This document shows positions 1 through 16,892 of a DNA stretch of 17,891 nucleotides, one piece after another (the first letter of the stretch is position 1; every line of letters begins with the position of its first letter). Source of the DNA: Acidobacteriota bacterium (GTDB taxonomy: Bacteria; Planctomycetota; Phycisphaerae; WQYP01; JAJZKJ01); contig JAJZKJ010000003.1 of NCBI GenBank assembly GCA_021804195.1, forward strand, positions 1 to 17,891, written 5' to 3'. The notes under the pieces were generated by a model. It made no database searches. It saw nothing but the letters and a program-made list of their open reading frames with translations, and had not been told where the DNA came from. The position numbers and the translations under genes are program-made.

Positions 1-72
1 GTTGGCGGCCCGGCTGACCGTAGGGCAGACGCGGAGCAAGTCCTCGATATCGATTTGGCCGGCTATCTTCAT
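1..72 (-). CDS. 5' fragment of an unidentified gene downstream of the RidA-family gene
   Basis: An ATG at 72 opens a reading frame that stays open for 24 codons to the window edge, starting MKIAGQIDIEDLL. It begins only three bases after the stop codon of the RidA-family gene, so it is probably the next gene of the same operon. The visible part is hydrophilic, with no signal peptide, and is too short to assign to a family. The acidic IDIEDLL stretch vaguely recalls the start of DUF1858-type helical domains, but this is not evidence. That it is a gene rests on the tight spacing and the absence of stops. Confidence 0.5.
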   Translation of the reverse strand, partial: MKIAGQIDIEDLLRVCPTVSRAAN

Positions 73-75
73 GCC

Positions 76-564
76 TTATGCGCCTTCCGATTCGAAGACC
101 GCGATGGCTTCCATTTCGATTAACAGCTCGGGGCGGCATAAAATGGCCTGAATGCCGGTCGAGGCGGGGAGCGGAGCCAACCCCTGGCGGTGGAAAAACT
201 CCGAGCGGATTTCGTTGAAAGCGGCGTAATCGCGCTCGATATCGCGTAAATAACAGGTGGTGCGCACAACGTCTTTCCAATCTGCCCCCTCAGCCTTGAG
301 CAGCGCAGTGACATTCTGGTAAGTGCGCCAGGCTTGAGCGCGGAAATCGCCTTCGTGCACGCTGCGCCCGAATTCATCGATGCTGGCCGTGCCGGAAATA
401 AACAGGAACGCCGTCCCCTTGAGATTGATCCGCAACCCGCGGGAAAACGATGACGGTTTCGCGTAGCTGTAGGCTTCATTCAACACCTCGGGAGCGCTCA
501 TGGCGTGTTTGGCAATGGGCGTGTGAACATGGGACAGAGTAGCGATTTTGTTATCGATGGGCAT
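76..564 (-). CDS. RidA-family (YjgF/YER057c/UK114) protein lacking the catalytic arginine
   Basis: This 162-residue protein has the RidA fold signature: LFISGTASID (residues 54-63), a central helix with QNVTALLKAEGA, the YLRDIERDYAAFNE segment, and the C-terminal strand LIEMEAIAV. RidA proteins are cytoplasmic trimers; the archetype hydrolyses reactive 2-aminoacrylate-type imines. In E. coli RidA the catalytic Arg105 lies in PARSCVEV; the aligned stretch here is PASTGIQA, so Ser135 replaces Arg. It therefore belongs with the Arg-less Rid subgroups, whose substrates are poorly known. An upstream in-frame ATG at 594 exists, but AGGAG sits just before the ATG at 564, which is preferred. The start lies inside the 3' end of the propeller gene (14-bp overlap), indicating translational coupling. 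The family call is firm; the function is not. Confidence 0.85.
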   Translation of the reverse strand: MPIDNKIATLSHVHTPIAKHAMSAPEVLNEAYSYAKPSSFSRGLRINLKGTAFLFISGTASIDEFGRSVHEGDFRAQAWRTYQNVTALLKAEGADWKDVVRTTCYLRDIERDYAAFNEIRSEFFHRQGLAPLPASTGIQAILCRPELLIEMEAIAVFESEGA

Positions 565-1717
565 GTCGGTCTCCTGTCGGGCTGGCGATGCCATGGCTTA
601 AGCCGTCGGCGGTGGCCACCCAGATATCCCGACCCTGAAAGGCCAGGCCTAGAACATAGTTGTGCGCCAACGAAGTTGCGGTTTCGATGCGGCGCGGTGG
701 ATGGTGGGGAACGGTGATAAGAATTTCGCCTCGCCCCGGAGGAGGAGGCGTTGCGGTGTCGAAGGCCCGCCAGTTCGCCGGACGGTAGGTGATCCAGACA
801 TGGGTGGCCGGATCAAACTCCGTGAGGCCGCGCTGGGTCGCGGCCCACACCCGCCGGCCCTGAAGGGCAACGCTGTTGACAAAATTGGACGCCAAGCCGC
901 TGTCCTGCCTTAGATAGTTATGCCAGCGGCGGCCATCATAGCCGCTCAGGCCAAAATAAGTTCCCGCCCAAAAGGAGTTGCTTTGCGGGCGGTGGGCAAG
1001 GCTGCTGACCATGTTGCTGATCAAGCCCTGATTGCGGTAAAGCAGGATTTCCGCGGAACCGGCTGGGTTGAGATAGGGGCGCCAGGTCTGGCGGCGCGGG
1101 TTATAAACCACCACACCGCCCCCCCACAGCCCCATATAGACCTTGTGCGGACCGATGGACAAGGCATAGGCCCACGGCTCCTTAAAGGGAGCGCTGGGCT
1201 GGCTCATCACACTGAAAATATGCCAGGTGTGCGTCCAGGTGTTGAACCGGCTGACGCCAGCCGCGGTCGCGGCCCAAACGTATTTGCCGTGCACCGCAAC
1301 GCTGTAGACCAGGTCGTTAGCCAAACCGCTGGACAATACCGTATAGCGCGTAAATTTGCCGGCCGAGTAGCGGCTTAACCCGCCCAGCGACGCCACCCAG
1401 ACACTGCCCGTATGCCGATTGACCGCGATCGACATGACCGCATAGCCGGCCAGGCCGTCGGCGCGGGTAAAGACCTTTTTCACTCGTCCCTGTTCGATCA
1501 AGACCAGCCCATGTTCGGTGCCCGCCCAGATGCGTTGCCCGTCAATGGCGACGCAGTACACCTCGCCGGCGGGAAAGCCGTTGGCGGGAGTGTAGTTGAT
1601 CCAGTGTGTGTAGAGTGGCGGCAATGGCGATGCGGCGCGGGCAGCCCACGCGAAGCTGGAGACGAGTCCCCAGCAGCCGAGAGCGCCTATGAGCCGGAAG
1701 CGTGTTTTGCGTTTCAT
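551..1717 (-). CDS. Secreted seven-blade Reg_prop-type beta-propeller protein
   Basis: The 388-residue protein starts with a Sec signal peptide (MKRK, hydrophobic core LIGALGCWGLVSSFAWA, likely cleavage after about residue 28 at AARA). The rest is seven repeats of the two-component-regulator propeller type, each ending in a W/Y-x-A/G-x-x-x-G-L/V element: IWAGTEHGL, VWVASLGGL, VWAATAAGV, VYMGLWGGG, FWAGTYFGL, VWAATQRGL and IWVATADGL. Such propellers are usually the periplasmic sensor part of hybrid histidine kinases. Here no Y_Y_Y, membrane or kinase part follows, so it is a free-standing propeller. Its ATG overlaps the stop of the cytochrome gene (ATGA, 1714-1717). It probably binds a ligand or partner outside the cytoplasm; the ligand is unknown. 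Confidence 0.8.
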   Translation of the reverse strand: MKRKTRFRLIGALGCWGLVSSFAWAARAASPLPPLYTHWINYTPANGFPAGEVYCVAIDGQRIWAGTEHGLVLIEQGRVKKVFTRADGLAGYAVMSIAVNRHTGSVWVASLGGLSRYSAGKFTRYTVLSSGLANDLVYSVAVHGKYVWAATAAGVSRFNTWTHTWHIFSVMSQPSAPFKEPWAYALSIGPHKVYMGLWGGGVVVYNPRRQTWRPYLNPAGSAEILLYRNQGLISNMVSSLAHRPQSNSFWAGTYFGLSGYDGRRWHNYLRQDSGLASNFVNSVALQGRRVWAATQRGLTEFDPATHVWITYRPANWRAFDTATPPPPGRGEILITVPHHPPRRIETATSLAHNYVLGLAFQGRDIWVATADGLSHGIASPTGDRHAHR

Positions 1718-3663
1718 AGCGATTTTAAAAATTGGATCAGATCGTTCAGCTGTTCTTTGTTCATATCCGAAGTAAATCCATGACGGTTGTGCGGGTTGAA
1801 CTTGGTCCAGATTTCTTCCAGACTTTGCGCCTCGCCATTGTGCAGATAGGGCGGCCGCATATAGATCCCTTCCAGCGAGGGGACTTTGAAAGCCTTGGTA
1901 TTGTCGAATCGAGTAGCGGTGCCGACGTTCATCAGCACCCGCGAAGTGTAATGGGTGAGCGGGGCATGACAGCGATAGCAGCGGTCATCCACGGGGATGA
2001 TTGCGCCGGTATTGGTGTGGGAACGAAAGAAGATTGCCCGGCCCCGCGCTTGCGCCGCCGTCAGCCGCCCATCGGGAGCGCGATAGGGGTTGGGCGGCAA
2101 GCGGAGGGAATTGACAAAGGAGACCAGGTCCCTGACCTGCCGCGGGCTGAACCCCTGGGAACGGAAAATGTACGTCGCCGTGCGCGGCCCGTCCTGAGTG
2201 GCGAGATTGGGATTCAACCCGTTCCATTTGAACGGCCCCGTGCCGCGTATGGCCCGGAGGGTTTTGTTTACCACGATGTCCTGGCCGAGATGCGGAACCT
2301 CGAAACTCCACATCAGGCCATCTTCGAAGCCTTCATCCGGATGACAGGTCGCGCAGGCCAGTTCCCGCTCATGTGCATGATCCGCATCAAAAAACAACTG
2401 CTGGCCGCGCCGCACCTCGGTCACCGTGTGCCTACCGCCGAGGCGAATCAGCCCGTCACTGCGCAAACCGTGCAGGTTGATCACGCTGATGGTGTCGTCC
2501 GTGCGGTTGGCGATATAGGCGTAGTGGCCGTCGGCCGAGGCGACAACCGCGGTGGGATCGTGTCCGGTCGGCAGGCGCCGCACGATGAAGCGGGCTGCAT
2601 CGGCCAGATTCCGTGACAGGTCCGCCGCGGCCGGCGATCGCAGCAGGCGCAGGAGCCGATTCAGGTCAAGGATCGAGACGCGATCCACTCCCGAGGCGGT
2701 GATCAGCGCCCATGGAGTATGCGGCGCCACCACCGCCCCGTAACCGTTGGCATAGGCACGATTCAAGCCGTCGAGCAATACTTCGCGCACGCGCGGACGG
2801 GCATGCCCATGCATTTCGACGATTGCCAATCCGTTGGCCGCGTACCAATCCCGGCGTAGCACGATCAGGGGAACCAGGTTGTGGGGTTGCAGAAAGGGAA
2901 TCAGCAGGTAGTCGCCGTGCCGCGTCGAAGCCTGCGCGATTTGGCGCATCTGAATCGCTCCCGGAACCAGGATGCGCCGCGCCACTTGCCGCGTGGCCGT
3001 ATCCACGAGCGATAGCTGGTCCACGGGTGGCTGCTCGGGGGATCCCGGCTGCGCCAGCAAATCAGAGACCGCAATCAATCCGCCGCGAAGCCGTGCCGCG
3101 AACGCTGGAAAATGCCCGGCCGACAGGCGCCTGATTTCCCGCCCCGTGGCTAACTGGACCACCGAAATGTCATTGCCCAGCGTGTTGGCAGTATAGAGGT
3201 AGCGGCCGGTATGGTCCGTGGCCAGGCCCTCTGGTCCCCAGCCGACCGGCAAAGTGCGGGTTACCCGCCATGCTCGCGTATCAATCACACTGACCGAATT
3301 GCTCCAGTTATTGGCCACATAGAGCCAGCGTCCGCCGGGGGAAAGCGCCAGCCCTTTGGGGTGCCGGCCGACAGCAAGCTCACCCATGACGCGGCGGGTA
3401 TGCGTATCGACTTCCAGAACTTCATTGCGCCCTTCGCAAGCCACGTACAACCGCCGGCCACGGGGAGAAATCTGCAAGGCTACCGGATCGAAATAACGCC
3501 GGGTGGAATAAAAACGCTCCCAGTAGGCGCTGCCACGCCGCTCACGCCGCATCGCCAGGCTGAGCGCCGCCACCAATAGTCCCAGGGTGAGGACGATCCA
3601 GCGTGTGGCGCCCCGCCAGCGCCGGGAAGAGCGGCTGACCGGCCATGGATGCCCGGTTCTCAT
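1714..3663 (-). CDS. Membrane-anchored YVTN beta-propeller fused to a dihaem MauG/cytochrome c peroxidase-like domain
   Basis: This is a 649-residue protein. A basic N-terminus is followed by one membrane segment (residues 22-38, WIVLTLGLLVAALSLAM), anchoring it to face the periplasm. Residues from about 58 carry YVTN-type repeats such as RLYVACEGRNEVLEVD, WLYVANNWSNSVSVID, YLYTANTLGNDISVV and YAYIANRTDDTISVIN. The C-terminal third has two haem c sites, CATCH (437-441) and CYRCH (562-566), and the family motif KVPSLEGIYMRPPYLHNG, which matches bacterial dihaem peroxidases and MauG-like enzymes. These use periplasmic electrons to reduce peroxide or oxidise partner proteins. An in-frame ATG at 3768 exists, but the ATG at 3663 overlaps the previous stop (ATGA) and begins the protein sensibly just before its anchor. 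The physiological substrate is unknown. Confidence 0.85.
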   Translation of the reverse strand: MRTGHPWPVSRSSRRWRGATRWIVLTLGLLVAALSLAMRRERRGSAYWERFYSTRRYFDPVALQISPRGRRLYVACEGRNEVLEVDTHTRRVMGELAVGRHPKGLALSPGGRWLYVANNWSNSVSVIDTRAWRVTRTLPVGWGPEGLATDHTGRYLYTANTLGNDISVVQLATGREIRRLSAGHFPAFAARLRGGLIAVSDLLAQPGSPEQPPVDQLSLVDTATRQVARRILVPGAIQMRQIAQASTRHGDYLLIPFLQPHNLVPLIVLRRDWYAANGLAIVEMHGHARPRVREVLLDGLNRAYANGYGAVVAPHTPWALITASGVDRVSILDLNRLLRLLRSPAAADLSRNLADAARFIVRRLPTGHDPTAVVASADGHYAYIANRTDDTISVINLHGLRSDGLIRLGGRHTVTEVRRGQQLFFDADHAHERELACATCHPDEGFEDGLMWSFEVPHLGQDIVVNKTLRAIRGTGPFKWNGLNPNLATQDGPRTATYIFRSQGFSPRQVRDLVSFVNSLRLPPNPYRAPDGRLTAAQARGRAIFFRSHTNTGAIIPVDDRCYRCHAPLTHYTSRVLMNVGTATRFDNTKAFKVPSLEGIYMRPPYLHNGEAQSLEEIWTKFNPHNRHGFTSDMNKEQLNDLIQFLKSL

Positions 3664-5357
3664 CGCGCCAGGCCTTTCCCGGGGGCTGCCGTTTTTTCGG
3701 GTTCCTTGACGTGCAGAATCTGGTCGGCGGGAATGTCTTGCAACACTTGCACCGTGCCGCTCGGCCAATGCAGCGTCAGCCGGTCAACTTGTTTGTGATG
3801 GCCCAGCCCAAAGTGGGGCCGTGGATCGGACTGCGATAGGTAACCGGATGCGGAAACGGCCTCGACCATCTGCCGCAAACCGCCGGCGGCCGCCACCAGG
3901 CGTGTGCCGTATCCATCCCGATTGCTGCGTGTGCCCTCCAGCCGGAGGGTCAGCCAGTGTTGCCGGGCTCCCTCGGGAGGAGTATTGCGCAGCAAAATGC
4001 CCGGGCCGCCTAAAGTGGTCAGAAAGGCGTCCACATAGCCGTCATTGTCGTAGTCGCCAAAACAGGCGCCGCGGCAAACATGGCGCTGCGCGAAAAAGCC
4101 GCCCTCCCGCACCCAATGGAAACCGCCCCGGTGATCGTTGCGTAGTAACACGCTCTTCATGGGAATCATCCAGGCCAAGCCGCCATCGCAAATGAAGATA
4201 TCCTTCCAGCCATCGTTGTCATAGTCGAAGACGCCGTCGCCCCAGCCAACGAACTGGCCGCAGACGCGGCCGATGCCCGATTGGGCGGTGCGGTCCAGGA
4301 AGAAAGCCTGATGCGCCGCGCGGCCGTTTTGATAGTACCGGTGATAGCTGGCGTCGGAGACAAACAGATCGAGCCAGCCCTGGTTATGGCAATCGGCAAA
4401 CACCGGGCCCATGGCCGTCGTGGCCTCGCCGTTTTGACCGAAAGCCACGTTCTGTTCGATGGCTACATTGGTGAATGTTCCATCGTGGTTATTGCGATAC
4501 AAAAAACTCTCCATCGTGTCGTTGGCAACGAAGATGTCGGGCCAGCCATCGTTGTTGTAATCGCCCACGGTGACGCCCATGGCGCGTCCGGCAACGCGGG
4601 CGATCCCCGACTCGCGCGATACGTCCGTGAAGGTGCCGTTGCCATTGTTGTGCAGCAAACGGTTGAATTGCGGGGCGTAATCCAACGGCCCGGGATAGTT
4701 ATCTCCGGGATAGTAATGCCTGTAGCTTGGTATAAAATGCAGATAGTTGCCAATAAATAAATCCAGGCGTCCATCACGGTCATAATCGAGAAAAGCCGCG
4801 CCTGTGGCGTAGTACGGGTTGCCAGCCCCGGCATCTTCGGTAACGTCGGTGAAGGTGCCGTCGCCGTTGTTGTGATAGAGCACGGACTGCAAATACCCGG
4901 TAATAAAAATATCCGGCCAGCCATCGTTGTCAAAGTCCCCCACGGTCACTCCGGTGGCAAAGCCACGGCCGCCAACGCCGGCTTCACGGGTGACGTCGGT
5001 GAAGGTGCCGTCGCCGTTGTTGCGGTAGAGATGGTTGGTGGCATCACGGCCGTCCGGCGCGGAATGATTCGTCACGCCAGGGAGATAGCGCCCGTTGGCA
5101 ACGTAAAGATCGAGCCAGCCGTCATTGTTGTAATCCAGCCAGGCGCAGCCGGCGCCCGTGCCTTCCAGGATCGAGCTGAGATGCTTCTCGCCGAAGGAAT
5201 GCCGGTAATGAATGCCCGAGCGCGCCGTAACATCCAGAAATTGTGGTCCGGCGGGAGGCGCATCCCGGGGGACGCGTCCCAGCCCCCAGCCACGCAGCGC
5301 GCCCCATGGGGCGGCAGCGGCCGCGGCGGCCAGCAGTTGTCGTCTCGAAAGCGTCAT
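3660..5357 (-). CDS. Tat-exported CRTAC1-type VCBS/FG-GAP propeller with ASPIC/UnbV C-terminal domain
   Basis: The 565-residue protein opens with a twin-arginine signal (MTLSRRQLLAAAAAAAPWG; RR at 5-6), predicting export in a folded state. Seven calcium-loop repeats of the VCBS/FG-GAP type follow: DYNNDGWLDLYV (from residue 75), DFDNDGWPDIFI, DYDRDGRLDLFI, DYNNDGWPDIFV, the degenerate DCHNQGWLDLFV, DYDNDGWKDIFI and DYDNDGYVDAFL. Seven loops suit a seven-bladed, integrin-alpha-like propeller. About residues 467-550 are the ASPIC/UnbV domain, with HWLTLRLEGT, NRDGYGTRL, SASGYLSQSDPRPHFGLG and LHWPSGTVQ. The reading frame extends upstream to 5834, but the start at 5357 is chosen because it gives the Tat signal, follows GTGAGGAC, and overlaps the upstream stop as ATGA. 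The family is common in Acidobacteriota and Planctomycetota; its biochemical role is not established. Confidence 0.88.
   Translation of the reverse strand: MTLSRRQLLAAAAAAAPWGALRGWGLGRVPRDAPPAGPQFLDVTARSGIHYRHSFGEKHLSSILEGTGAGCAWLDYNNDGWLDLYVANGRYLPGVTNHSAPDGRDATNHLYRNNGDGTFTDVTREAGVGGRGFATGVTVGDFDNDGWPDIFITGYLQSVLYHNNGDGTFTDVTEDAGAGNPYYATGAAFLDYDRDGRLDLFIGNYLHFIPSYRHYYPGDNYPGPLDYAPQFNRLLHNNGNGTFTDVSRESGIARVAGRAMGVTVGDYNNDGWPDIFVANDTMESFLYRNNHDGTFTNVAIEQNVAFGQNGEATTAMGPVFADCHNQGWLDLFVSDASYHRYYQNGRAAHQAFFLDRTAQSGIGRVCGQFVGWGDGVFDYDNDGWKDIFICDGGLAWMIPMKSVLLRNDHRGGFHWVREGGFFAQRHVCRGACFGDYDNDGYVDAFLTTLGGPGILLRNTPPEGARQHWLTLRLEGTRSNRDGYGTRLVAAAGGLRQMVEAVSASGYLSQSDPRPHFGLGHHKQVDRLTLHWPSGTVQVLQDIPADQILHVKEPEKTAAPGKGLAR
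4843..5022. repeat. Two 30-bp identical direct repeats within the VCBS gene
   Basis: The 30 bases at 4843-4872 recur exactly at 4993-5022, 150 bp apart, and a diverged copy lies near 4622-4652. On the minus strand they encode the NNGDGTFTDVT element that links successive propeller blades. Identity at DNA level across two blades suggests recent blade duplication or gene conversion rather than an independent repeat family. Confidence 0.85.
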
Positions 5358-6796
5358 CGGGTCCTCACTTTCGCGGCGCTTCTCGGAGCCGCCGCAGGCA
5401 GGCCGATGGGAATCGGCGCGCGGAGACGCCGGAGCACCCGCGGCCAATGGTTGACCGGCGTGAGCGCGGGGCCTTCGTGGCAGCCCTCGCAACCGGCATC
5501 TTCGCCGGGCCGTATCCAGATCCAGCTTCGCTGCGCTTTCACCACTGCGCCGCGGGCGTTGAGGAGATCGAAGCGCAGCGGCAGATTCGCGGGCAAGCGC
5601 AGGTAAAAGGAGCCGTCGGGTTCGACCTGCGCCGCGCCGAGCATCTCCGGTTGCGCGTGCTCCAATGCCATAACCCGCACCCGCATCAACCCGCCAGGCA
5701 AATGATCGCCCGGTGCGCCAGGCGAACGGTAGGCATCCAAACAAATGACACGGCCGCTCGCAAGTTGCGGATTGACTAGGCTGAAGTACAGTTGCGGCGT
5801 GGGATGCGATGTGAGCGGCGTCGCTTGCGCGCAAGTGATGCCCGGTGCGCTATATACGGAAGCCGCAAGGCGGCCGGTCGCGGAGTCGAAAATATGGATG
5901 CCGCACCCCGCCATTTTATCGAGCGCTGTGCCGCTGAGCAGCCAGCGCTGGCCTTGGAACGGCCGTATCGAATTGAAGGCTGGCATCGCCCGCGGCACTC
6001 GCACCGCGTGCGGCGATTGAGGCGTGTACCATGCCAGATCGCCCCATCCGGCTGGAGCGTGGTGCGCCGCGGAAGCCGCCCGGCGAGCAATGAACGCCAC
6101 CACTCCATGGGGCATGGCACGAGCGCTGCCGGGCACGGTGTGTGCCGGATAGGAGCCCCGAAACAGCCGTAACGCGGACCCATCGGGCCGCAGCGTATAC
6201 AACGCCCGCGCGCTTCTCGATGCGTCTGCAACCAACGGCGACGCCGCTGAGACCAACAAGCGGCCGCTGGGCAGGACTGCTTCCACGCGAAAGTTACCCG
6301 GACCAAAGGTGATGGGCTGCGGCTCGCCGCCATTGGCTCTCGATCGGTAAATCTGCGAACCAAGCCTCCCCGCTTCCCCTCCCTGTAACGTATAAATGAT
6401 CCAACCGCCAGGCAGCCAGGCCGGACGCAAACAATTCGCCGCGCAATGTGTCACCTGGATTGGTTTTCCGCCCATGGCGGCCATTCGCCACACTTGCCAA
6501 TGCCCGCCGCGCCGGCGCTGCCCGGCAAACAAGATCTGACGCCCATTGAAGGAAACGCGCGGGTCGGCAGCAGCGTACAAATCGGGGGTAAGGTCGGTCG
6601 GGACGGCGTGATCCGGCGACCAGCGCACAAGGCGGCTCCCGAGCGGAAACCGCCGTACGAATAGGTCGGGAGATTCCCGCGCCGTTTCTACAAATACCAG
6701 GCTCGGCAGTCGCGTCGCGCTGCCATGTTCCGTGGCGGCTAGCCCTAATATGGCTAGCATCAACGGTATCGCGAAAGTTGAGCGTGTTTTTACCAT
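5354..6796 (-). CDS. Secreted PD40-type propeller with one C-terminal haem c site (hydrazine-synthase-alpha-like family)
   Basis: This 480-residue protein is the first gene of the operon. Residues 1 to about 26 are a Sec signal peptide (MVKTRSTFAIPLMLAILGLAA). The body shows PD40/TolB-like blade motifs such as DPRVSFNGRQILFAGQ, WQVWRMAAMGGKPIQVT, LRPAWLPGGWIIYTL and SQIYRSRANGGEPQPITFG. The C-terminal part has the pattern PDGSFYLRLPANLPLRFDLL, then RSWIWIRPGEDAG and a haem c site CEGCH (436-440). That combination is typical of the family annotated as hydrazine synthase alpha middle-domain-like, which is widespread outside anammox bacteria. Only one CxxCH is present, so hydrazine synthesis is not implied. 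In-frame ATGs upstream (to 6928) give a non-signal, low-quality N-terminus; the ATG at 6796 is preferred, with GACAGG weakly serving as its ribosome site. It ends in an ATGA overlap with the CRTAC1-type gene. Confidence 0.8.
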   Translation of the reverse strand: MVKTRSTFAIPLMLAILGLAATEHGSATRLPSLVFVETARESPDLFVRRFPLGSRLVRWSPDHAVPTDLTPDLYAAADPRVSFNGRQILFAGQRRRGGHWQVWRMAAMGGKPIQVTHCAANCLRPAWLPGGWIIYTLQGGEAGRLGSQIYRSRANGGEPQPITFGPGNFRVEAVLPSGRLLVSAASPLVADASRSARALYTLRPDGSALRLFRGSYPAHTVPGSARAMPHGVVAFIARRAASAAHHAPAGWGDLAWYTPQSPHAVRVPRAMPAFNSIRPFQGQRWLLSGTALDKMAGCGIHIFDSATGRLAASVYSAPGITCAQATPLTSHPTPQLYFSLVNPQLASGRVICLDAYRSPGAPGDHLPGGLMRVRVMALEHAQPEMLGAAQVEPDGSFYLRLPANLPLRFDLLNARGAVVKAQRSWIWIRPGEDAGCEGCHEGPALTPVNHWPRVLRRLRAPIPIGLPAAAPRSAAKVRTR

Positions 6797-7366
6797 CGCC
6801 TGTCTTTTCCACACATCTTTGCGCACTGGGTTACGGCTATTGTTCGAATCGCGGGCGATACAATCAACGATTTTCCATATGTGAACGCTGCCAATCACAG
6901 TCATTAATTTTTTTCTACTACACCTCAACTAATCACATTCCATCTCGCGGCCTAGTGTGGATCCCCGGGCTGATATAACTGAATAAGACACGCTTACTTC
7001 TTGGCGAATGGAGAATTGTGTCATGGGATTGAAGCCATGAAAATTCACGCGGGAGTTTAAGGAAGCCGGCGTGTTGCGCGCGAGTGGCGGCGGCGGGTTT
7101 GGCGGGTGTGCCGTAAGAAAGTGCGGGGCTGATGCGCGAAGGCAATCGGTTGTGTTTGCGCAAACGCGGATGCGTGGCCGCTGCCTATTCCAATCACGAT
7201 CTGCTGGCGTATTCCAATCTGGCGGGATCTCGAGTTGACTCGAGGCGCGCGCGCAAATGGAACGGGGTTGGACTGGAATCCAAGCGGCTTCTACGCTTGA
7301 AAAGAACGGCAAATTCTGAAACAGCCTGGTCCTTCATGACTAGCTTTTGATAAACTGAATCTCCGC
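6797..7366. other. Intergenic region between the propeller operon and the gal genes
   Basis: No convincing intact gene is seen in these 570 bases, which look lower in GC than the flanks near 6900. For the minus-strand operon, a weak sigma-70-like pair can be read: TTGATT (complement of 6862-6867), a 17-base spacer, and AACAAT (complement of 6839-6844), which would give a leader of about 35 bases. Other small structures are a perfect hairpin CTCGAG-TTGA-CTCGAG at 7229-7244 and the direct repeat TATTCCAATC at 7186-7195 and 7210-7219. The stretch from 7041 resembles a transposase start and is listed separately. No tRNA or terminator was recognised. Confidence 0.4.
7036..7082 (+). pseudogene. Possible relic of a transposase OrfA start
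   Basis: Codons from 7041 read KFTREFKEAGVLRA, which resembles the start of IS3-type OrfA transposase subunits (typically (R)KFTREFK-EAV-L). An ATG-AAA at 7037-7042 lies directly upstream but is displaced by one A; removing one A would give MKFTREFKEAGV. After about 14 residues the resemblance fades, and the frame carries no recognisable helix-turn-helix, so if real it is a decayed fragment. A 14-residue match in translated intergenic DNA can arise by chance. Confidence 0.22.
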
Positions 7367-7525
7367 ATGAAAAAACGCGCCATCGCCGCCCCAACCCCAG
7401 CCCCAAACACGGTCCTGCGCCGCCAGGACCTGACCAAGCCCGACGGCCGTAAATTGTTTCTTTATACCTTCGCTGAAACTAAATCGGCCCCCTCAACCCC
7501 GGCGGCATCGCCGCGCAAAAGCTGA
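7367..7525 (+). other. Probable N-terminal segment of GalT, in a different frame from the galT core
   Basis: ATG at 7367 to TGA at 7525 encodes 52 residues with GC-rich third positions, including the stretch LTKPDGRKLFLYTF. GalT proteins of the SELRxDPLLGEW-HRQ-RT type (as in Streptomyces) normally carry an N-terminal extension with an ADGRELIYYD-like motif about 30 residues before the SE(L/V)R motif. Here the distance from DGR to SELR would be about 34 residues if the frames are joined. The joining shift is +1. Reading through AGC-TGA-T with one base skipped gives DFSQNAMSELRW; one base fewer in the C5 run at 7488-7492 also joins the two frames. Either an extra base (natural or from sequencing) or recoding could explain this. 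Confidence 0.6.
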
Positions 7526-7541
7526 TTTTTCGCAAAACGCT

Positions 7542-8525
7542 ATGTCGGAACTGCGCTGGAATCCGCTGCTGGGCGAATGGGTGGTTACGGCCACGCACCG
7601 CCAGGACCGCACTTTTCATCCTCCGCCCGACTATTGCCCGCTCTGTCCCACCCGGCCGGGCAAAATGGAAACCGAGATTCCCTTTCCCGATTTCGAAATC
7701 GCGGTCTTTGAAAACAAGTTTCCCTCCTTTCAACGCCATCCGCCCCGGCCCGCGGTGCGGGGAACAAAGCTCACTCCGGTGCGGCCGGCGCGCGGCGCCT
7801 GCGAGGTGGTGGTTTATTCGCCCCGCCACGACACCACGCTGGCCCAGGAACCGGTGGCCAAGATCGAGCGCCTGATCCGCGTCTGGCGCGACCGCTATCA
7901 GGAGTTAAGCCGGCGGCCGGAAATTGAATATGTTCTGATCTTTGAAAATAAAGGCGAGGTCATCGGCGTCACACTGTCGCACCCGCACGGCCAGATCTAT
8001 GCCTTCGACTATATTCCGCCCATTCCGGCCCGCGAACTGCAGCAGATGCGCGGCCACTGGAGCAGTCATCATGCTTGTCTGCTCTGTGCGCAATTGGCCA
8101 GCGAGCGCCGCCAGGGCCGGCGCGTGGTCTACGAAAACGCCGCCTGCACCGCCGTCATCCCCTTTTACGCCCGCTATCCATACGAGACCCATCTGCTGCC
8201 GCGCCGCCATCTGGGCAGTCTGCTGGAGCTGACGGATCATGAAATTCAACTCTGGGCCCAGGCACTGCAACGCGTGCTCACGGGCTTTGACCGGCTATTT
8301 AATTTTTCTTTCCCCTACATGATGCTGCTCCATCAGTCTCCCTGTGACGGCCGTTCCCACCCGTATTTTCATTTTCATATTGAATTTCTGCCGCCCTACC
8401 GCAGCGCCACTCGCCTGAAATATCTGGCCGGCTGCGAATCGGGCGCGGGAACGTTCATCAACGATACGCTGGCCGAAGAGAAGGCCGCCGAGTTGCGCCA
8501 GGCTATCGGGAGCGCGGGCGCATGA
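7542..8525 (+). CDS. galT: Galactose-1-phosphate uridylyltransferase (catalytic core)
   Basis: GalT exchanges UMP between UDP-glucose and galactose-1-phosphate in the Leloir pathway, in the cytoplasm. The 327 residues shown contain SELRWNPLLGEW at the start, a metal-binding cysteine pair CPLC (32-35), the active-site motif SHPHGQ (146-151; His149 would carry the UMP), a second pair C179/C182, and the late HFHIEFLPP strand of the HIT-like fold. The ATG at 7542 has no clear Shine-Dalgarno sequence, and the usual N-terminal extension appears to lie in another frame at 7367-7525, so this may be a 5'-frameshifted gene. The core is intact. Its stop overlaps the galK start (ATGA at 8522-8525), so the two are co-translated. 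Confidence 0.9.
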   Translation: MSELRWNPLLGEWVVTATHRQDRTFHPPPDYCPLCPTRPGKMETEIPFPDFEIAVFENKFPSFQRHPPRPAVRGTKLTPVRPARGACEVVVYSPRHDTTLAQEPVAKIERLIRVWRDRYQELSRRPEIEYVLIFENKGEVIGVTLSHPHGQIYAFDYIPPIPARELQQMRGHWSSHHACLLCAQLASERRQGRRVVYENAACTAVIPFYARYPYETHLLPRRHLGSLLELTDHEIQLWAQALQRVLTGFDRLFNFSFPYMMLLHQSPCDGRSHPYFHFHIEFLPPYRSATRLKYLAGCESGAGTFINDTLAEEKAAELRQAIGSAGA

Positions 8526-9691
8526 GCCTGTCGTCATCCCAGCGGCTGACTCCGGCGGCAGTGCGGGAAATGGCCAGCGCCCGGCTGTGCGGTCCGGTGC
8601 GCTTGTTTCGCGCTCCCGGACGCGTCAACCTGATCGGCGAACATACCGACTACAATCTGGGTTTTGTCCTGCCGGCCGCAATTGACCGTTACACTTATGT
8701 CGCCGCCCGCCCCCGCGCCGGCCGCGAGTTGCGCATGGCCAGCGCGCAGTTTCCGGAAACCTTTTCCCTGTCACTCGATCAACTGAAGCCTCTGCGCGGC
8801 TGGGGCAATTATCTGGCGGGTGTCGCGGATGGCCTGCAAGTGCAAGGCCTGCCCCTGCATGCCGCCGAGCTTTTTGTCACCAGCGAGGTCCCCTACGGAG
8901 CCGGGCTCAGCTCCTCCGCCGCGCTGGAAATATCCACCGGCCTGGCCCTGGCCAGCTTGTCGGGCGCGTCATTCGATCCCCTGCATCTGGTGCGCGCCGG
9001 CCAGCATGCGGAGCATGCCTTCGCCGGCACTCAATCCGGCGTCATGGATCAATTTATCAGCACTTTCGCCCGCGCCGGTCATGCCCTCCGCCTCGACTGC
9101 CGCAATCTGGAATGGGAACTGGTTGCCCTGCCCGCCGGCTGCGCCCTGGTCATCTGCAACACCGGGGTCAAACACGAGTTGGCCGGCTCGGAATATAACC
9201 AGCGCCGCCAGGAATGCGAAACCGGAGTGGACCTGCTGCGCCGCGATCGGCCCGAAATCGCCAGTCTGCGGGATGTAACCATCGCGGAATTAACCGCGCA
9301 TCAAGCCGATCTGCCGCCGGTGATCTTCCGCCGTTGCCGCCATATCGTCACCGAAAATCAGCGCGTGCTGGATGCGGGACGGGCCTTCCATGACGGCGAC
9401 TTTGCCCGTTTAAGGCGCCTGTTTTCCGCTTCCCATGCCAGCATGCGCGATGATTATGAAATCTCCTGCCGCGAACTCGACATCATGGTCGCGGCGGCCG
9501 AAGCGGCGCCGGGGTTTCTGGCCGGCCGCATGACGGGCGGCGGCTTCGGCGGGTGCACCGTCAATCTGGTGCGCCCCGAGCTGGTGGAACCATTCCGCAG
9601 CGCCACGGCGCATGCCTATGCCCAGGCCACCGGGCGGGAAGCCGAAATCATCGCCACGCCCGCCGCCGCCGGCTGCGAAGAATTGCTTTAA
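8522..9691 (+). CDS. galK: Galactokinase
   Basis: GalK phosphorylates galactose at C1 with ATP, the entry step of the Leloir pathway, in the cytoplasm. The 389-residue length is normal. All three GHMP-kinase signatures are present: the galactokinase motif GRVNLIGEHTDY (33-44), the ATP-binding motif VPYGAGLSSSAALE (123-136), and MTGGGFGGC (337-345). The catalytic Asp is D176 in GVMDQF. It overlaps galT by four bases, and its TAA (9689-9691) directly abuts the end of larB on the other strand with no spacer. No epimerase (galE) or galactose transporter gene is in the window. Confidence 0.95.
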   Translation: MSLSSSQRLTPAAVREMASARLCGPVRLFRAPGRVNLIGEHTDYNLGFVLPAAIDRYTYVAARPRAGRELRMASAQFPETFSLSLDQLKPLRGWGNYLAGVADGLQVQGLPLHAAELFVTSEVPYGAGLSSSAALEISTGLALASLSGASFDPLHLVRAGQHAEHAFAGTQSGVMDQFISTFARAGHALRLDCRNLEWELVALPAGCALVICNTGVKHELAGSEYNQRRQECETGVDLLRRDRPEIASLRDVTIAELTAHQADLPPVIFRRCRHIVTENQRVLDAGRAFHDGDFARLRRLFSASHASMRDDYEISCRELDIMVAAAEAAPGFLAGRMTGGGFGGCTVNLVRPELVEPFRSATAHAYAQATGREAEIIATPAAAGCEELL

Positions 9692-10471
9692 TCAGCTTTT
9701 CATTGTTTCCCGGCCGGCGAGCCGCATGATTTGCGCCGCCACATAGCCCGCGCCAAAGCCGTTATCAATATTGACCGTGACCACATTCGACGCGCAGGCA
9801 TTCAGCATGCCCATCAATGCGCCCACGCCATGCAGTCCGGTCCCATAGCCGATCCGGGTGGGCACCGCGATCACCGGCGCCTGCGTGAGTCCGCCGACCA
9901 CGCTGGGCAGCGCCCCTTCCATGCCCGCCACCACGATCACCACCCCCGCCTGCTGCAATCTGGGCACATGCGCCAGCAGCCGGTGCAGGCCGGCCACGCC
10001 CACATCCTGAATCAACTCGGTGCGGCAGCCCAGGGCGTCCGCGGTCAGCATCGCTTCTTCCGCCACCGGATGGTCGCTGGTTCCGGCGGAAACGATCAGC
10101 ACCGGCAATCGCGCCGCGGGCTTATTTTTTTTGCCTTCCGCGCGCCAGCGGATCACACCCGAAGCGGGGTAATACCGGGCTTGCGGCCAGCGCCGCTTCA
10201 CCGCCCGCGCCACCGCCGGCGTGGCGCGAGTGATTAAAAGATTGGCCTGCTTGCGCCGCAGCGCGGCGGCAATGGCCACCACTTGCCGCGGGGTTTTTCC
10301 TTGGGCGAAAATCACCTCGGCCGCTCCGTTGCGCAGGGCGCGGTGATGGTCCACCTGGGCGAAGCCGAGATTTTCAAACGGTAATTGCCGCAATTCAGTT
10401 TGCGCCCGCGCCGGCGAAACCTTGCCCGCCGCCACCTGTTCCAGCAGTTGCCGCAGTCGTTCCGGTTGCAC
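9692..10471 (-). CDS. larB: LarB, nickel-pincer cofactor biosynthesis (AIR-carboxylase-like)
   Basis: LarB carboxylates and hydrolyses nicotinic acid adenine dinucleotide as the first step in making the nickel-pincer nucleotide of lactate racemase and related enzymes. This 259-residue protein has a normal length and the PurE-like C-terminal half: GTSDHPVAEEA (130-140), QDVGVAGLHR (155-164), VAGMEGALPSVVGG (181-194) and PTRIGYG (204-210). The N-terminal part (LPFENLGFAQVDHHRALRNG) is also typical. The start is GTG at 10471, with no good ribosome site. It is convergent with galK and divergent from the pseudouridine synthase gene, so it is transcribed alone; larC, larE and larA are not in the window. 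Confidence 0.9.
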   Translation of the reverse strand: MQPERLRQLLEQVAAGKVSPARAQTELRQLPFENLGFAQVDHHRALRNGAAEVIFAQGKTPRQVVAIAAALRRKQANLLITRATPAVARAVKRRWPQARYYPASGVIRWRAEGKKNKPAARLPVLIVSAGTSDHPVAEEAMLTADALGCRTELIQDVGVAGLHRLLAHVPRLQQAGVVIVVAGMEGALPSVVGGLTQAPVIAVPTRIGYGTGLHGVGALMGMLNACASNVVTVNIDNGFGAGYVAAQIMRLAGRETMKS

Positions 10472-10554
10472 CTATCTATTGTGCCGCAGCCGCAGCGGTC
10501 CACACTCCGCATTTCACGTTATTCTGGTTTCGCCCCAATCTCCCTGTGGTTGCC
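10472..10554. promoter_or_regulatory. Divergent promoter region between larB and the pseudouridine synthase gene
   Basis: These 83 bases separate two genes read away from each other, so they should hold both promoters. TATTCT (10519-10524) could be a -10 element for the plus strand, and CACAAT (complement of 10479-10484) one for the minus strand. No matching -35 boxes are clear, so the individual sites are not assigned. Confidence 0.35.
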
Positions 10555-11313
10555 ATGCCTTCAACCCCCCTCCGGCAAAAACCCGCGCGCCGGCACAAGC
10601 CCGAACTGACTCTCGACCGGCTGCTTTCGCGCAGCGGACTGATGTCGCGCGCCCAGGCGGCCGAAGCCATCCGGGCCGGACGGGTCAGCCTGCAAGGCCG
10701 GCGTATCAGCGATCCTTTGACCTGGGTGGAGGCCAAAGACCCCAGCCTGCGTCTGGACGGCCGGCGGCTGAAAAACGCGCCCCGGCAATACTGGGTCATG
10801 CATAAGCCCAAAGGCGTGCTCACCGCCCATGGCGACGCGCGCGGCCGCAAAACGGTTTACGATCTTATCGCTCAGAAGCTCCGCCTGGGCCAGGAAGGCA
10901 AATGGTTGTTTCCCGTCGGCCGGCTCGATCTCGACAGCAGCGGATTACTGCTCCTGACGAATGACAGCATCTTCGCCGAGCGTATCACCCAGCCCGCCAC
11001 CAAGGTGCCCAAGACTTACCTGGTAAAAGTGAATGCGATTGTGGATGAAGCCGGTCTGGCGCGGCTCCGTCAGGGTCTTGATATTGGCCGGGGCGAGCGC
11101 AGCGGACCCGCCGAAATCAACTATATCGGCGATAACGGCCGCTTCTGCCGTCTGGAGATCACCCTCACGGAAGGCAAAAACCGGCAGGTACGGCGCATGC
11201 TGGAGGCGCTGGGGCACACGGTTTTGAAGCTGGTGCGAACCCGCATCGGCAAACTGGAGCTGGCGGATCTTCCCCCCGGCGAGTTTCGCAAAATCCGGCC
11301 CGATCAAATATAA
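10555..11313 (+). CDS. RsuA/RluB-family ribosomal pseudouridine synthase
   Basis: The product isomerises a uridine of ribosomal RNA to pseudouridine. From the ATG at 10555 it has 252 residues: an S4 RNA-binding domain (about 18-65, LTLDRLLSRSGLMSRAQAAE and AGRVSLQGRRI), then the synthase domain with HKPKGVLTA, TVYDLI and the catalytic-Asp motif VGRLDLDSSGLLL (Asp125), and the C-terminal NRQVRRMLEALGH-V-KLVR motif of the RsuA/RluB/E/F group. An in-frame GTG at 10546 (three residues longer) is an alternative start; neither has a clear Shine-Dalgarno sequence. Which rRNA site it modifies cannot be told here, though RluB-like is the best guess. A terminator-like hairpin follows immediately. Confidence 0.88.
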   Translation: MPSTPLRQKPARRHKPELTLDRLLSRSGLMSRAQAAEAIRAGRVSLQGRRISDPLTWVEAKDPSLRLDGRRLKNAPRQYWVMHKPKGVLTAHGDARGRKTVYDLIAQKLRLGQEGKWLFPVGRLDLDSSGLLLLTNDSIFAERITQPATKVPKTYLVKVNAIVDEAGLARLRQGLDIGRGERSGPAEINYIGDNGRFCRLEITLTEGKNRQVRRMLEALGHTVLKLVRTRIGKLELADLPPGEFRKIRPDQI

Positions 11314-11347
11314 AGGGCGGCCAACCGCTGCGGCTGCCGCCCCTTTT
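11312..11347. terminator. Bidirectional terminator-like hairpin
   Basis: GGGCGGC (11315-11321) pairs with GCCGCCC (11336-11342) across a 14-base loop that itself can form CCG/CGG. On the plus strand it is followed by CTTTT, and on the minus strand by TTTATATTT. It lies between two convergent genes (pseudouridine synthase and atpE) and overlaps the stop codon of the former, so it can serve both. Confidence 0.6.
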
Positions 11348-11370
11348 CAACTCCCCAAATTTCATCCCGT

Positions 11371-11688
11371 TTATGTTTTCATCAGGATGATGACAAAGGT
11401 GTACAGGGCCAGAGACTCAATCAGCACCAGGCCCAGAATCAGCGAAAAACGAATGCCGGCGGCCGCGCCGGGATTGCGGGCCAGAGCCTCGGAAGCGCCG
11501 GCGGTGGCCATGCCTTGGCCGATGCCGCACAGCCCGGAGGCAATGCCCATGCCGATGCCGGCGCCGATCGGCACCCAGCTTGCCACCGAACCGGTAGCGG
11601 CTCCCGCACCGGCGCTTTGGCCAAATAATGGAGTAGCCGCCAGAAAAATTGCGGCCAGGGTCAAAAACGATTTCCAATAACGACGCAT
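11371..11688 (-). CDS. atpE: ATP synthase Fo subunit c, with an N-terminal signal-like extension
   Basis: Subunit c forms the membrane rotor ring of F-type ATP synthase. The 105 residues are longer than the usual 70-90 because a signal-peptide-like stretch (1 to about 23, RRYWKSFLTLAAIFLAATPLFG) precedes the hairpin. Helix 1 is GAGIGMGIASGLCGIGQGMA, the loop is ARNPGA (the usual R-x-P), and helix 2 is LILGLVLIESLALYTFVIIL with the ion-binding carboxylate Glu91. Gln58, Glu91, Ser92 and Tyr96 match positions that form the sodium site of Ilyobacter-type c subunits, but the next residue is Leu rather than Thr. A strong AAGGAG precedes the ATG. It is the last Fo gene here: no atpF or F1 gene follows. 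Confidence 0.93.
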   Translation of the reverse strand: MRRYWKSFLTLAAIFLAATPLFGQSAGAGAATGSVASWVPIGAGIGMGIASGLCGIGQGMATAGASEALARNPGAAAGIRFSLILGLVLIESLALYTFVIILMKT

Positions 11689-11714
11689 ACGCTTCTCCTT
11701 CGCGGAACGGCCGC

Positions 11715-11755
11715 GCCCGGGTTATGAAATCCCGCTGGGAGGTGGTTCCCCGGGC
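11715..11755 (-). promoter_or_regulatory. Intercistronic stem-loop between atpB and atpE
   Basis: GCCCGGG (11715-11721) is complementary to CCCGGGC (11749-11755), with a 27-base loop that contains a smaller TCCC-GCT-GGGA hairpin. It lies in the 107-base gap upstream of the atpE ribosome site. Subunit c is needed in many copies, so an mRNA structure that alters its stability or translation would make sense, but this is inferred from position alone. Confidence 0.3.
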
Positions 11756-11795
11756 CGCGCAGGATCCGGGGCTCACGCCATCGGGCACTGCAAAC

Positions 11796-12551
11796 TTATG
11801 CCACGGCCGCTTCTTCCGCCGGTCCGTGGTGCGATTCCACCGCCCCGGCCAGATAGATCATGGCCAGCAGGACAAAAATGTAGGCCTGCAGCAGGGCAAT
11901 AAAGAAATGAAAGGTCATGAAGACCACCCCGGCCAGGGGAAACAAGGCCATCATGATCTGAATGATCATGTCGCCGGCGAACATGTTTGCGAATAAGCGC
12001 ACTGAAAGCGAAAGGATGCGCGCCAGATGGCTGATGAGCTCGATCGGCAGCATCAGAAATGCCAGCAGCGGAATCGGCCCCAGGAAGGTTTTCCCATAAC
12101 TCAGCCAGCCCTGCCGGCGAATGCCCTGCATGTGGTAATAGACAAACGTGACCAGGGCGCAGCCCAAAGGCACCGTGATTTGCGCTGTCGGCGCGGCCAG
12201 ACCCGGAATCAGGCCCATCAGGTTGCCGACTAAAATGAGCACGGCCAGGGTCATCAAAAATCCCAGAAAGCGCTGGGCATCATGGCCAATCACTTCCTCC
12301 GCCTGGCTTTCGATGCCCGTCCATAAAAGCTCGAGGATGTGCTGCCAGGCGCCTGGTTTGTCCACCGAAAGCCGCGGCCGTATCCAGACCGCGAATAGCG
12401 CGATGATCAATGCCGCCAGAACTTCCATCGCCACATGATTGGGGATGGGCGCGGCAGGATGCGCCGGCGCCACATGCAGCAGCCGCAGCAGCGCGTCGGC
12501 GGGGCGGGCGAAAAGTGCGTTCAGCCAGCGTGTAAACCAGAGTTGATGCAT
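11796..12551 (-). CDS. atpB: ATP synthase Fo subunit a
   Basis: Subunit a forms the ion half-channels next to the c-ring. The 251-residue protein is strongly hydrophobic and has the key features of the family: the essential arginine in LSLSVRLFANMFAGD (Arg185), PIELISHLARIL before it (Glu171), NLMGLIPGL (110-118) in an earlier helix, and the final helix with LLQAYIFVLLAMIYLAGAV (Gln222). The C-terminus has a short Ala/Glu/His tail. The start at 12551 is 25 bases after the subunit I stop, with only a weak GGAAAC ribosome site. It is co-transcribed with the upstream subunit I gene and probably with atpE 107 bases downstream. Confidence 0.95.
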   Translation of the reverse strand: MHQLWFTRWLNALFARPADALLRLLHVAPAHPAAPIPNHVAMEVLAALIIALFAVWIRPRLSVDKPGAWQHILELLWTGIESQAEEVIGHDAQRFLGFLMTLAVLILVGNLMGLIPGLAAPTAQITVPLGCALVTFVYYHMQGIRRQGWLSYGKTFLGPIPLLAFLMLPIELISHLARILSLSVRLFANMFAGDMIIQIMMALFPLAGVVFMTFHFFIALLQAYIFVLLAMIYLAGAVESHHGPAEEAAVA

Positions 12552-12576
12552 GGGTGCGCGGTCGTTTCCGTGCCCT

Positions 12577-13071
12577 TTATAAGTTGTGCCTCAAATATTG
12601 CGTCAGCAGATAGCCGGCTTCCAGCATCACGCCGCCGGCCAGCGAGGAAAACCCCGCCAGCACCGCTAACGGCGGCAGCCAGGCAACTTTTAATGTAGCA
12701 TAAAGCACGCCTGCCAGTATCAGCCAGCGCAGCCAGCCCAGCAGCTTTTTATATTTTGCTGGAGCTGGAAGCGCCGCTCCCGCAACCGCAGGCGCGTTCC
12801 GGGCCGCCTGCGTGATGGGCTGAATCATCCAGCGGTCCACCTGACGGCCAATCCAGCGCAAGTGCCACTCCGCCAGAATCGCGCCCGCGGCGGCGCCGAA
12901 GGCCGCGCGCCAGCCGAAAAAAACTCCGGCCAGCCCCGTGGCGGCAATCCCCAGCAGCCGCATCAACAGCCTGATGCGCCGCTCTGCGGCCTTTAAGCCG
13001 GGGTCATTCAGGGCCGCGGCCGCGGGATTCATGTCCGCTGCCGGCGCGGAGAGGGGTGCGCCTTCGGGCAT
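12577..13071 (-). CDS. atpI: ATP synthase subunit I-like membrane protein
   Basis: This is a 164-residue small membrane protein with four probable helices: about residues 38-70 (LLGIAATGLAGVFFGW, AAFGAAAGAILAEWHL), and two more near the C-terminus (LRWLILAGVLYATLKVAWL, PLAVLAGFSSLAGGVMLEAGYLL). The size, four helices and position just before atpB fit subunit I (AtpI), which assists c-ring assembly and may handle Mg2+ in other bacteria. The reading frame extends upstream to 13194, but the ATG at 13071 is chosen because it overlaps the stop of the CDGSH gene (TAATG) and removes a basic, non-conserved stretch. Sequence similarity alone is weak in this family; the call leans on context. Confidence 0.75.
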   Translation of the reverse strand: MPEGAPLSAPAADMNPAAAALNDPGLKAAERRIRLLMRLLGIAATGLAGVFFGWRAAFGAAAGAILAEWHLRWIGRQVDRWMIQPITQAARNAPAVAGAALPAPAKYKKLLGWLRWLILAGVLYATLKVAWLPPLAVLAGFSSLAGGVMLEAGYLLTQYLRHNL

Positions 13072-13310
13072 TAGCTGGATGACTGCGCTTTGGCGGCTTC
13101 CGCCGCCAAAACCGCCGCTTCGGCGCCTTGAAAGCCGATCTTGCTGTGCGTGCCGTCGCAGAAAGGCTTGTTCGTGGAACCGCCGCAGCGGCAAAGCGCG
13201 ATGACCGGCTTGTCCACCGTGATGGTCTGGCCATTGGAATCAATGAACTGAAACGGGCCCTGCACCACCAGGGGTCCGTTGCGGCGAATGGTAATGCTGA
13301 CACCAGACAT
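13071..13310 (-). CDS. CDGSH iron-sulfur (NEET-type) domain protein
   Basis: This 79-residue soluble protein carries one complete CDGSH signature, CRCGGSTNKPFCDGTH (residues 40-55). Cys40, Cys42, Cys51 and His55 would bind a 2Fe-2S cluster in the three-Cys/one-His manner of the family. Bacterial small CDGSH proteins are thought to transfer or sense redox state or clusters; the role is usually unknown. The N-terminal strands (MSGVSITIRRNGPLVVQGPF) are typical of the stand-alone bacterial type. GGAAATCC provides a ribosome site before the ATG. Its stop overlaps the subunit I start by one base (TAATG), so its expression is coupled to the Fo genes. Confidence 0.9.
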   Translation of the reverse strand: MSGVSITIRRNGPLVVQGPFQFIDSNGQTITVDKPVIALCRCGGSTNKPFCDGTHSKIGFQGAEAAVLAAEAAKAQSSS

Positions 13311-13348
13311 GCTGGATTTCCTTTTGCGATGATCGTATGCGGAACTTA

Positions 13349-13354
13349 ATTTTA
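13349..13354 (-). promoter_or_regulatory. Possible -10 element for the CDGSH-atp operon
   Basis: The complement reads TAAAAT, one base from the sigma-70 -10 consensus, inside an AT-rich 81-base gap between rbfA and the CDGSH gene. It would give a leader of about 32 bases. No good -35 box is present at 15-18 bases, so this is tentative. No terminator for the nusA-rbfA operon was recognised in the same gap. Confidence 0.25.
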
Positions 13355-13391
13355 CTACGAAGAAGAACGAAAGAATTTTTGCCGCCGTAAG

Positions 13392-13751: not shown

Positions 13752-13779
13752 AATGAACCTCCCGGGGCGCGTGCCGGCC

Positions 13780-14085: not shown

Positions 14086-14121
14086 GGGGAGCCGCCGTGC
14101 GGCATTTTGCGGCCCGGGCCG

Positions 14122-16821: not shown

Positions 16822-16892
16822 AAATCTCTGATTTTCTGCCCGGGATTTCCGGCCCAGCCGGCTCCCAGGCTCATCAATGTTTCATGCCCCGG

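Follow-up and report, generated by a model that had tools for sequence, protein, structure and literature searches.

A hydrazine-synthase-like operon with a conserved set of exported partner proteins in Acidobacteriota and Planctomycetota

The operon and its two hydrazine synthase relatives

A 17,891-nucleotide stretch of DNA (contig JAJZKJ010000003.1, positions 1 to 17,891 of the forward strand; assembly GCA_021804195.1, named Acidobacteriota bacterium and placed by GTDB in the Phycisphaerae), here called the window, carries an operon whose first gene encodes a relative of the alpha subunit of hydrazine synthase (HZS) and whose third gene encodes a relative of the HZS beta and gamma subunits fused into one chain (betagamma). 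Both assignments hold by profile, by the sequences of the solved structure and by predicted fold. A first-pass annotation, made from the sequence alone, had described a translationally coupled operon of four exported propeller proteins, two of them with c-type haem motifs. Its four minus-strand reading frames, the three ATGA overlaps that join them (TCAT on the plus strand) and the three haem motifs are all confirmed, and Pfam agrees with its FG-GAP/ASPIC, Reg_prop, and propeller plus CCP_MauG assignments. The operon stands, but its gene count does not: a fifth gene, for a RidA-family protein, had been overlooked, whose first 14 bases lie within the end of the Reg_prop gene. The features are the following.

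5354..6796, minus strand: HZS-alpha-like protein, 480 aa, first gene; PD40/TolB-type propeller and HZS_alpha middle domain, one CxxCH, signal-peptide-like start
5477..5491, minus strand: CEGCH, which corresponds to HZS haem alphaI; the next residues are EGPALTP, and Ser590-Tyr591 is lacking
5354..5357, minus strand: ATGA overlap alpha/CRTAC1 (sequence)
3660..5357, minus strand: CRTAC1/UnbV-type FG-GAP and ASPIC protein (PF13517, PF07593), 565 aa, twin-arginine start
3660..3663, minus strand: ATGA overlap CRTAC1/betagamma (sequence)
1714..3663, minus strand: HZS beta-gamma fusion-like protein, 649 aa; N-terminal helix, YVTN propeller, di-haem gamma domain
2341..2355, minus strand: CATCH, haem gammaI site (alignment with HZS gamma)
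2224..2226, minus strand: Trp480, in the place of HZS gamma His144; CCP/MauG-type tryptophan (alignment)
2191..2193, minus strand: Asp491, in the place of HZS gamma Cys165, the third haem thioether (alignment)
1966..1980, minus strand: CYRCH, haem gammaII site (alignment with HZS gamma)
1780..1782, minus strand: His628, equivalent of the distal ligand gamma His332 (alignment)
1714..1717, minus strand: ATGA overlap betagamma/Reg_prop (sequence)
551..1717, minus strand: Reg_prop propeller (PF07494, E 1.8e-10), 388 aa, signal-peptide-like start, no CxxCH
76..564, minus strand: RidA-family protein (PF01042, E 4e-20), fifth gene; no export signal by eye

The first protein is a PD40 protein, as annotated, but its identity is HZS-alpha-like: it matches PF18582 in Pfam (E 4.8e-18) and NF052339 in NCBIfam (E 5e-19), and its predicted fold finds chains D and A of the anammox HZS structure as best matches (5c2v_D and 5c2v_A; E 5.5e-22 and 1.1e-21, TM 0.75 and 0.76). 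The chain ends soon after its single CxxCH, without haem alphaII and the C-terminal ~100 residues. Likewise, the YVTN protein is related to HZS beta-gamma (NF052342, E 1.8e-51), and its only haem motifs are the CATCH and CYRCH of the gamma-domain pair. Neither protein passes the curated NCBIfam cut-off for anammox HZS (alpha 67.7 of 800 bits, betagamma 175.2 of 1250 bits). Residues 15-40 of betagamma are modelled as an N-terminal helix, a likely membrane anchor. Among its structure matches VIA-align listed 5c2v_B and not 5c2v_C, propellers filling that list; 5c2v_C was also absent from the top 50 of the other structure search, and the kinship of the gamma domain with HZS gamma is one of sequence.

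Large families of PF18582 (HZS_alpha domain) paralogues occur in genomes not known as anammox: we counted 85 matches in a Pirellulaceae genome of 11.7 Mb (G063, the genome of locus L107) and 22 in another genome (G062). Because one Pirellulaceae genome holds 85 matches, PF18582 alone is no marker of an HZS-like system.

The first-pass annotation knew of no named system with this composition; however, the core is the HZS-like gene cluster of PMC12758564 (December 2025). PMC12758564 describes HZS-like clusters of alpha, CRTAC1 and fused betagamma in clades I-IV, suggests that they have no hydrazine-making ability, and puts the order alpha-CRTAC1-betagamma in print for clades I and II. The window shares with clade II an alphaI-only alpha protein with a shorter C-terminus, CRTAC1 between alpha and the fused betagamma, a betagamma lacking extra haem motifs, Trp at gamma 144 and the absence of Tyr591, and it fits that clade in gene order and in the haem and residue features described there. 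PMC12758564 reports binding proteins in clade III and a gamma Cys165 in clade I. In one relative of the window (L040, 4265-6313) betagamma carries an insert ahead of the gamma domain, and in it a third CxxCH that resembles the extra motif described for clade III.

An earlier paper, PMC10732223 (2023), found an hzsA-like gene directly upstream of a fused hzsBC-like gene in Phycisphaerae and KSB1 genomes, an arrangement that the window shares; it suggested a wider enzyme family with other substrates and treated some Phycisphaerae carriers as possible new anammox bacteria. In the text available, PMC10732223 uses neither CRTAC nor propeller as a term, and PMC10875860 has none of hydrazine, CRTAC and FG-GAP. 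That of PMC12758564 makes no mention of Reg_prop, RidA or DAHP synthase, and its main text has no word beginning 'acidobacteri'. No paper found in open-licence PMC (for PMC12758564 the text, figures and supplements aside) names Reg_prop, RidA or DAHP synthase as partners. The core is thus already known; our additions are the partner set, its conservation and a group of proteins in which the third-thioether Cys is replaced by Asp.

Active-site residues compared with anammox hydrazine synthase

We collected relatives through betagamma, with flanks of up to 9 kb. The ten nearest loci are L031-L040; a one-genome-per-species scan gave 435 betagamma relatives, of which the best 80 were used as further loci. 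These 80 fall into a two/three-haem class (64 loci, Acidobacteriota plus L126, whose label is Bacteroidales, possibly through a binning error) and a ten-haem class (16 loci, of which 13 carry names of Planctomycetota groups, one, L105, is from Bryobacteraceae and two are called only 'bacterium'). The gamma part of six true HZS gene sets from Planctomycetota genomes was aligned with the window and 19 hand-chosen loci (26 rows), and the four main gamma positions were rescored on all 90 loci against one HZS. In the 90-locus tallies L032 and L049, and L033 and L050, come from the same genomes and are both counted.

All 26 aligned rows retain both gamma CxxCH sites and His332; in the wider set His332 is present in 90/90 loci. 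Position 144 is His in 6/6 HZS and Trp in the window and in 90/90 loci; position 168 is Asp in 6/6 HZS and in 0/90 loci, with Thr in the window. Cys165, which forms the third thioether, is found in 6/6 HZS, in 16/16 ten-haem loci and in 48 of the 74 two/three-haem loci, the others having Asp (22), Ala (3) or Gly (1); the window has Asp. Across 80 loci this position is Cys in 59, Asp in 18 and Ala in three. Cys165, which PMC12758564 reports for clade I, is here also present in two/three-haem loci, and Asp takes its place in the window's group. In a betagamma tree of 44 rows (37 loci hand-chosen), HZS sits on a long branch (2.34) and the window stands beside L031 (100/100). The group around them is acidobacterial and includes the rows with Asp; the placement of L034 and L126, both with long branches, is unsure.

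The alpha haem site reads CEGCHEGPALTP in the window and CxGCH[YD]GSY in 6/6 anammox HZS. Tyr591 of alpha is a haem ligand in HZS (PMC12607021). A Tyr three to five residues past the haem His is present in 0/70 of the alpha haem sites recognised by pattern, six further sites being unrecognised. The window shares with 5C2V the alpha propeller and middle domain, the beta propeller, the di-haem gamma domain and the distal histidine of haem gammaII; it differs in the beta-gamma fusion, in having the alpha gene first and not last, in its one alpha haem site and in the missing active-site residues.

Could the host nonetheless be a hidden anammox-type bacterium that makes hydrazine from NO and ammonium? 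Overall homology and the operon favour a true hydrazine synthase; however, Ser590-Tyr591 and a second haem site are missing from alpha, gamma carries the changes His144 to Trp, Asp168 to Thr and Cys165 to Asp, and PMC12758564 draws the same negative conclusion for its homologues. PF13447 (HAO/HDH-type octahaem proteins) gave 12 and 14 matches in two anammox genomes and none in G003, G004, G005, G008 and G031, which include four cluster-bearing genomes of the window's family. As the HZS-defining residues (alpha Tyr591, gamma His144 and Asp168) are gone and no octahaem HAO-type protein was found there, hydrazine synthesis is unlikely. We reject anammox in disguise on the alpha and gamma residues together with the lack of PF13447 in window-family genomes, and regard a true hydrazine synthase as very improbable.

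In the 'MauG/peroxidase-like domain' of the first-pass annotation Pfam finds CCP_MauG (E 1.2e-08); the domain is closest to HZS gamma and has the HZS distal histidine of haem II. With MauG and cytochrome c peroxidase the protein shares a di-haem domain with a tryptophan between the haem sites (CATCH, Trp480, CYRCH). Those enzymes have a Tyr or Met ligand at haem II; in the window a His, a putative ligand, lies at the HZS distal-ligand place. Their profile matches are much weaker. MauG oxidises a side chain of its target protein, and betagamma might similarly be a maturation enzyme of MauG/MbnH type acting on a protein side chain of CRTAC1 or Reg_prop. Consistent with this are the CCP_MauG match, the NCBIfam matches to MauG and MbnH (3.5e-08 and 6.1e-08, both below cut-off), the invariant Trp at gamma 144, and the fact that betagamma is nearly always encoded with exported partners. 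However, we see no sign of a modified residue and the HZS beta-gamma match is far stronger than that to MauG (1.8e-51 against 3.5e-08), so we consider maturation distinctly unlikely.

Conservation of the partner set

The families are neither confined to this genome nor freely swapped. The order alpha-CRTAC1-betagamma-Reg_prop-RidA is kept in 10/10 nearest loci although alpha falls to 27% identity. This supports the picture of an operon that is conserved and whose products are exported or membrane-tethered, two of them with c-type haem motifs; eight other P4-paralogue loci fetched alongside (L041-L048) are without the set. When the count is restricted to loci whose flank on the relevant side reaches 4.5 kb or more, the 80 further loci, both classes pooled, have alpha in 53/54, CRTAC1 in 53/54 and Reg_prop in 57/61. 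In the two/three-haem class the figures are alpha 42/43, CRTAC1 42/43, Reg_prop 45/49, RidA 41/49, a binding protein 46/49 and DAHP synthase 17/34; in the ten-haem class they are alpha 11/11, CRTAC1 11/11, Reg_prop 12/12, binding protein 12/12, RidA 1/12 and DAHP synthase 0/10. The exceptions are L055 and L059, where a GMC dehydrogenase follows alpha and betagamma, L070, L093 and five loci that lack only or mainly RidA.

A search that did not start from betagamma gave the same picture. Among 396 Acidobacteriota genomes drawn evenly (betagamma at E<=1e-90, Reg_prop at E<=1e-60), betagamma was found in 19 genomes and Reg_prop in 17, all of them among the 19, with the pair within 1 kb in 17/17. 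The chance of such an overlap is ~6e-28 if genomes are independent, which related genomes are not. The distribution of the cluster is patchy yet tight across Acidobacteriota, and Reg_prop is a core member of it, new within the literature searched.

The ATGA junctions are frequent among homologues but not invariant. With starts chosen by script and L049/L050 left out, a -4 start is possible at the four successive junctions in 31/71, 33/78, 48/81 and 12/61 homologues, and a start lies within -20..+40 at the first three in 66/71, 69/78 and 69/81. The Tat-type start of CRTAC1 (RRQLL) recurs in L031-L034, but L035-L040 show no twin arginine, again at script-set starts.

The GMC genes of L055 and L059 bear on a further reading, in which alpha and betagamma serve a periplasmic flavin dehydrogenase as its cytochrome component: this dehydrogenase, a GMC oxidoreductase with a gluconate-dehydrogenase-type small subunit, would oxidise a sugar or alcohol and pass the electrons to the three haems. 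Both loci are reduced variants, with the GMC gene and gluconate dehydrogenase subunit 3 directly after alpha and betagamma (by Pfam in L055 only) and with no Reg_prop, RidA or binding protein found. GMC-like proteins occur in 15/90 loci and Gluconate_2-dh3-like ones in 13/90 (Pfam on L049 and L055 only), and the first 12 listed loci of each family lie in or next to the betagamma group of the window. However, neither family was found at this similarity in the other loci, within flanks limited to 9 kb, and an electron relay leaves CRTAC1, Reg_prop, the binding proteins and RidA unexplained. We regard it as possible but unlikely.

RidA, and DAHP synthase in 17/34 loci, are additions of the acidobacterial class. 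A RidA orthologue, 62-88% identical, follows Reg_prop in 10/10 nearest loci. RidA is an imine deaminase whose catalytic arginine follows PA (Arg105 in E. coli); here that place is taken by Ser135 (PAST against PARV of 2dyy), and Ser is found in 11/11 aligned rows. In relatives the operon continues with periplasmic binding proteins of LivJ type, and binding-protein genes follow in both haem classes; one such protein matched solved structures of LivJ/HAAT type generally, with no specific ligand. DAHP synthase lies downstream in L031-L033; in L035-L040 it lies upstream, and four of these six loci show a 4-base overlap. The cluster copy is an additional one in 9/9 genomes that have it, with one to three others above the family cut-off. 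The N-terminal part of this DAHP synthase type is regulatory; it is absent from the two cluster copies scanned, since their alignments begin only at position 63 or 82 of the 338-position model.

We rejected RidA as an exclusive marker of the cluster: the even draw gave 23 RidA matches in 21/396 genomes. Five were in known loci and 18 were new (L147-L164; five contigs <8 kb). Four of these 18 have an HZS-like alpha match nearby (L150, L156, L159 and, weakly and at a contig end, L149), and seven have DAHP synthase near RidA. Twelve of the 21 genomes also have betagamma and nine lack it at the cut-off; in G455 the two are far apart. Ten proteins scanned beside RidA outside the cluster (PD40+TPR proteins, PPK2, UbiA, prephenate dehydratase and others) share no single theme. 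The pairing of RidA and DAHP synthase away from the cluster makes them a linked metabolic pair taken up by the acidobacterial cluster, and they are probably not part of its oldest core. The same RidA subtype is found without an HZS-like cluster in L147 (8968-9474) and L148 (5899-6699); near it L147 has a 2OG-Fe(II)-oxygenase-like gene, UbiA and prephenate dehydratase, and L148 a similar oxygenase-like protein, by eye only.

Other features of the neighbourhood are listed for completeness. A Crp/Fnr-type regulator lies upstream of alpha in eight related loci (for example L052, 4706-5422; Pfam on L052 only), and none was seen in the 745-base gap between the operon and galT in the window. Divergent from the operon, galT and galK (7542-9691) overlap by four bases. 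The product of 11371-11688 is an ATP synthase c subunit (PF00137); its N-terminus is long and signal-like, and its Q...ES....Y pattern may resemble that of sodium-binding c rings. Rfam gave no match in the window and a single tRNA (L033) in seven related loci, and hence no hint of a riboswitch.

Proposed function and its significance

Our preferred explanation, to which we give a probability of about 0.5, is that the operon encodes a periplasmic, membrane-tethered clade II HZS-like complex whose gammaI site most likely performs a peroxidase/MauG-like oxidation of a small organic substrate. We favour this chemistry because the residues that define hydrazine synthesis are missing and a tryptophan of CCP/MauG type is present. 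By analogy with the HZS crystal structure, alpha and betagamma would bind each other as in 5C2V, with the betagamma helix (residues 15-40) anchoring the pair in the membrane. Haem gammaII would relay electrons to or from haem gammaI, with a path on to the alpha haem, and haem gammaI with its tryptophan would oxidise the substrate. CRTAC1 and Reg_prop, the near-constant haem-free partners, are probably scaffold or docking subunits, and the LivJ-type protein encoded downstream in relatives presumably presents the substrate. That this substrate may derive from chorismate or an amino acid is suggested by RidA and by the additional DAHP synthase found in relatives, and is a guess.

Several points weigh against this explanation. 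MauG-like chemistry is suggested by one tryptophan and family kinship, and electron transfer without catalysis is equally compatible with them. Model confidence is low in the gamma domain around haem I (block means pLDDT 41-58, residues 451-500), and the predicted structures are of two single chains and not of a complex. PF13447 is weakly present in five other cluster-bearing genomes (one match each in G043, G051, G057 and G058, two in G056). RidA and DAHP synthase are rare or absent in ten-haem clusters, occur paired away from the cluster (L152, L153, L154 and L157) and may be a separate module. Finally, the window ends at RidA, and binding proteins and DAHP synthase are seen in relatives only.

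To our knowledge, hydrazine synthase long seemed an enzyme without relatives. A broader proposal, which we hold as a doubtful speculation, is that Acidobacteriota and non-anammox Planctomycetota use a many-subunit HZS relative, made up of alpha, betagamma, CRTAC1, Reg_prop and binding protein, which would retain the two-haem, channelled architecture and act on organic nitrogen or an aromatic compound. In Acidobacteriota it would be fed by its own unregulated shikimate entry and a RidA-like enzyme. Concrete hints towards the substrate come from Reg_prop, the binding proteins, RidA and the additional DAHP synthase, and the compact acidobacterial five-gene operon, with its near-constant partners and natural changes at the third thioether, offers proteins for testing the ancestral activity. 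Finding 'hydrazine synthase' among the annotations of a soil genome does not necessarily point to anammox. If the proposal is true, anammox would be one specialised offshoot of an older and wider family of channelled haem enzymes.

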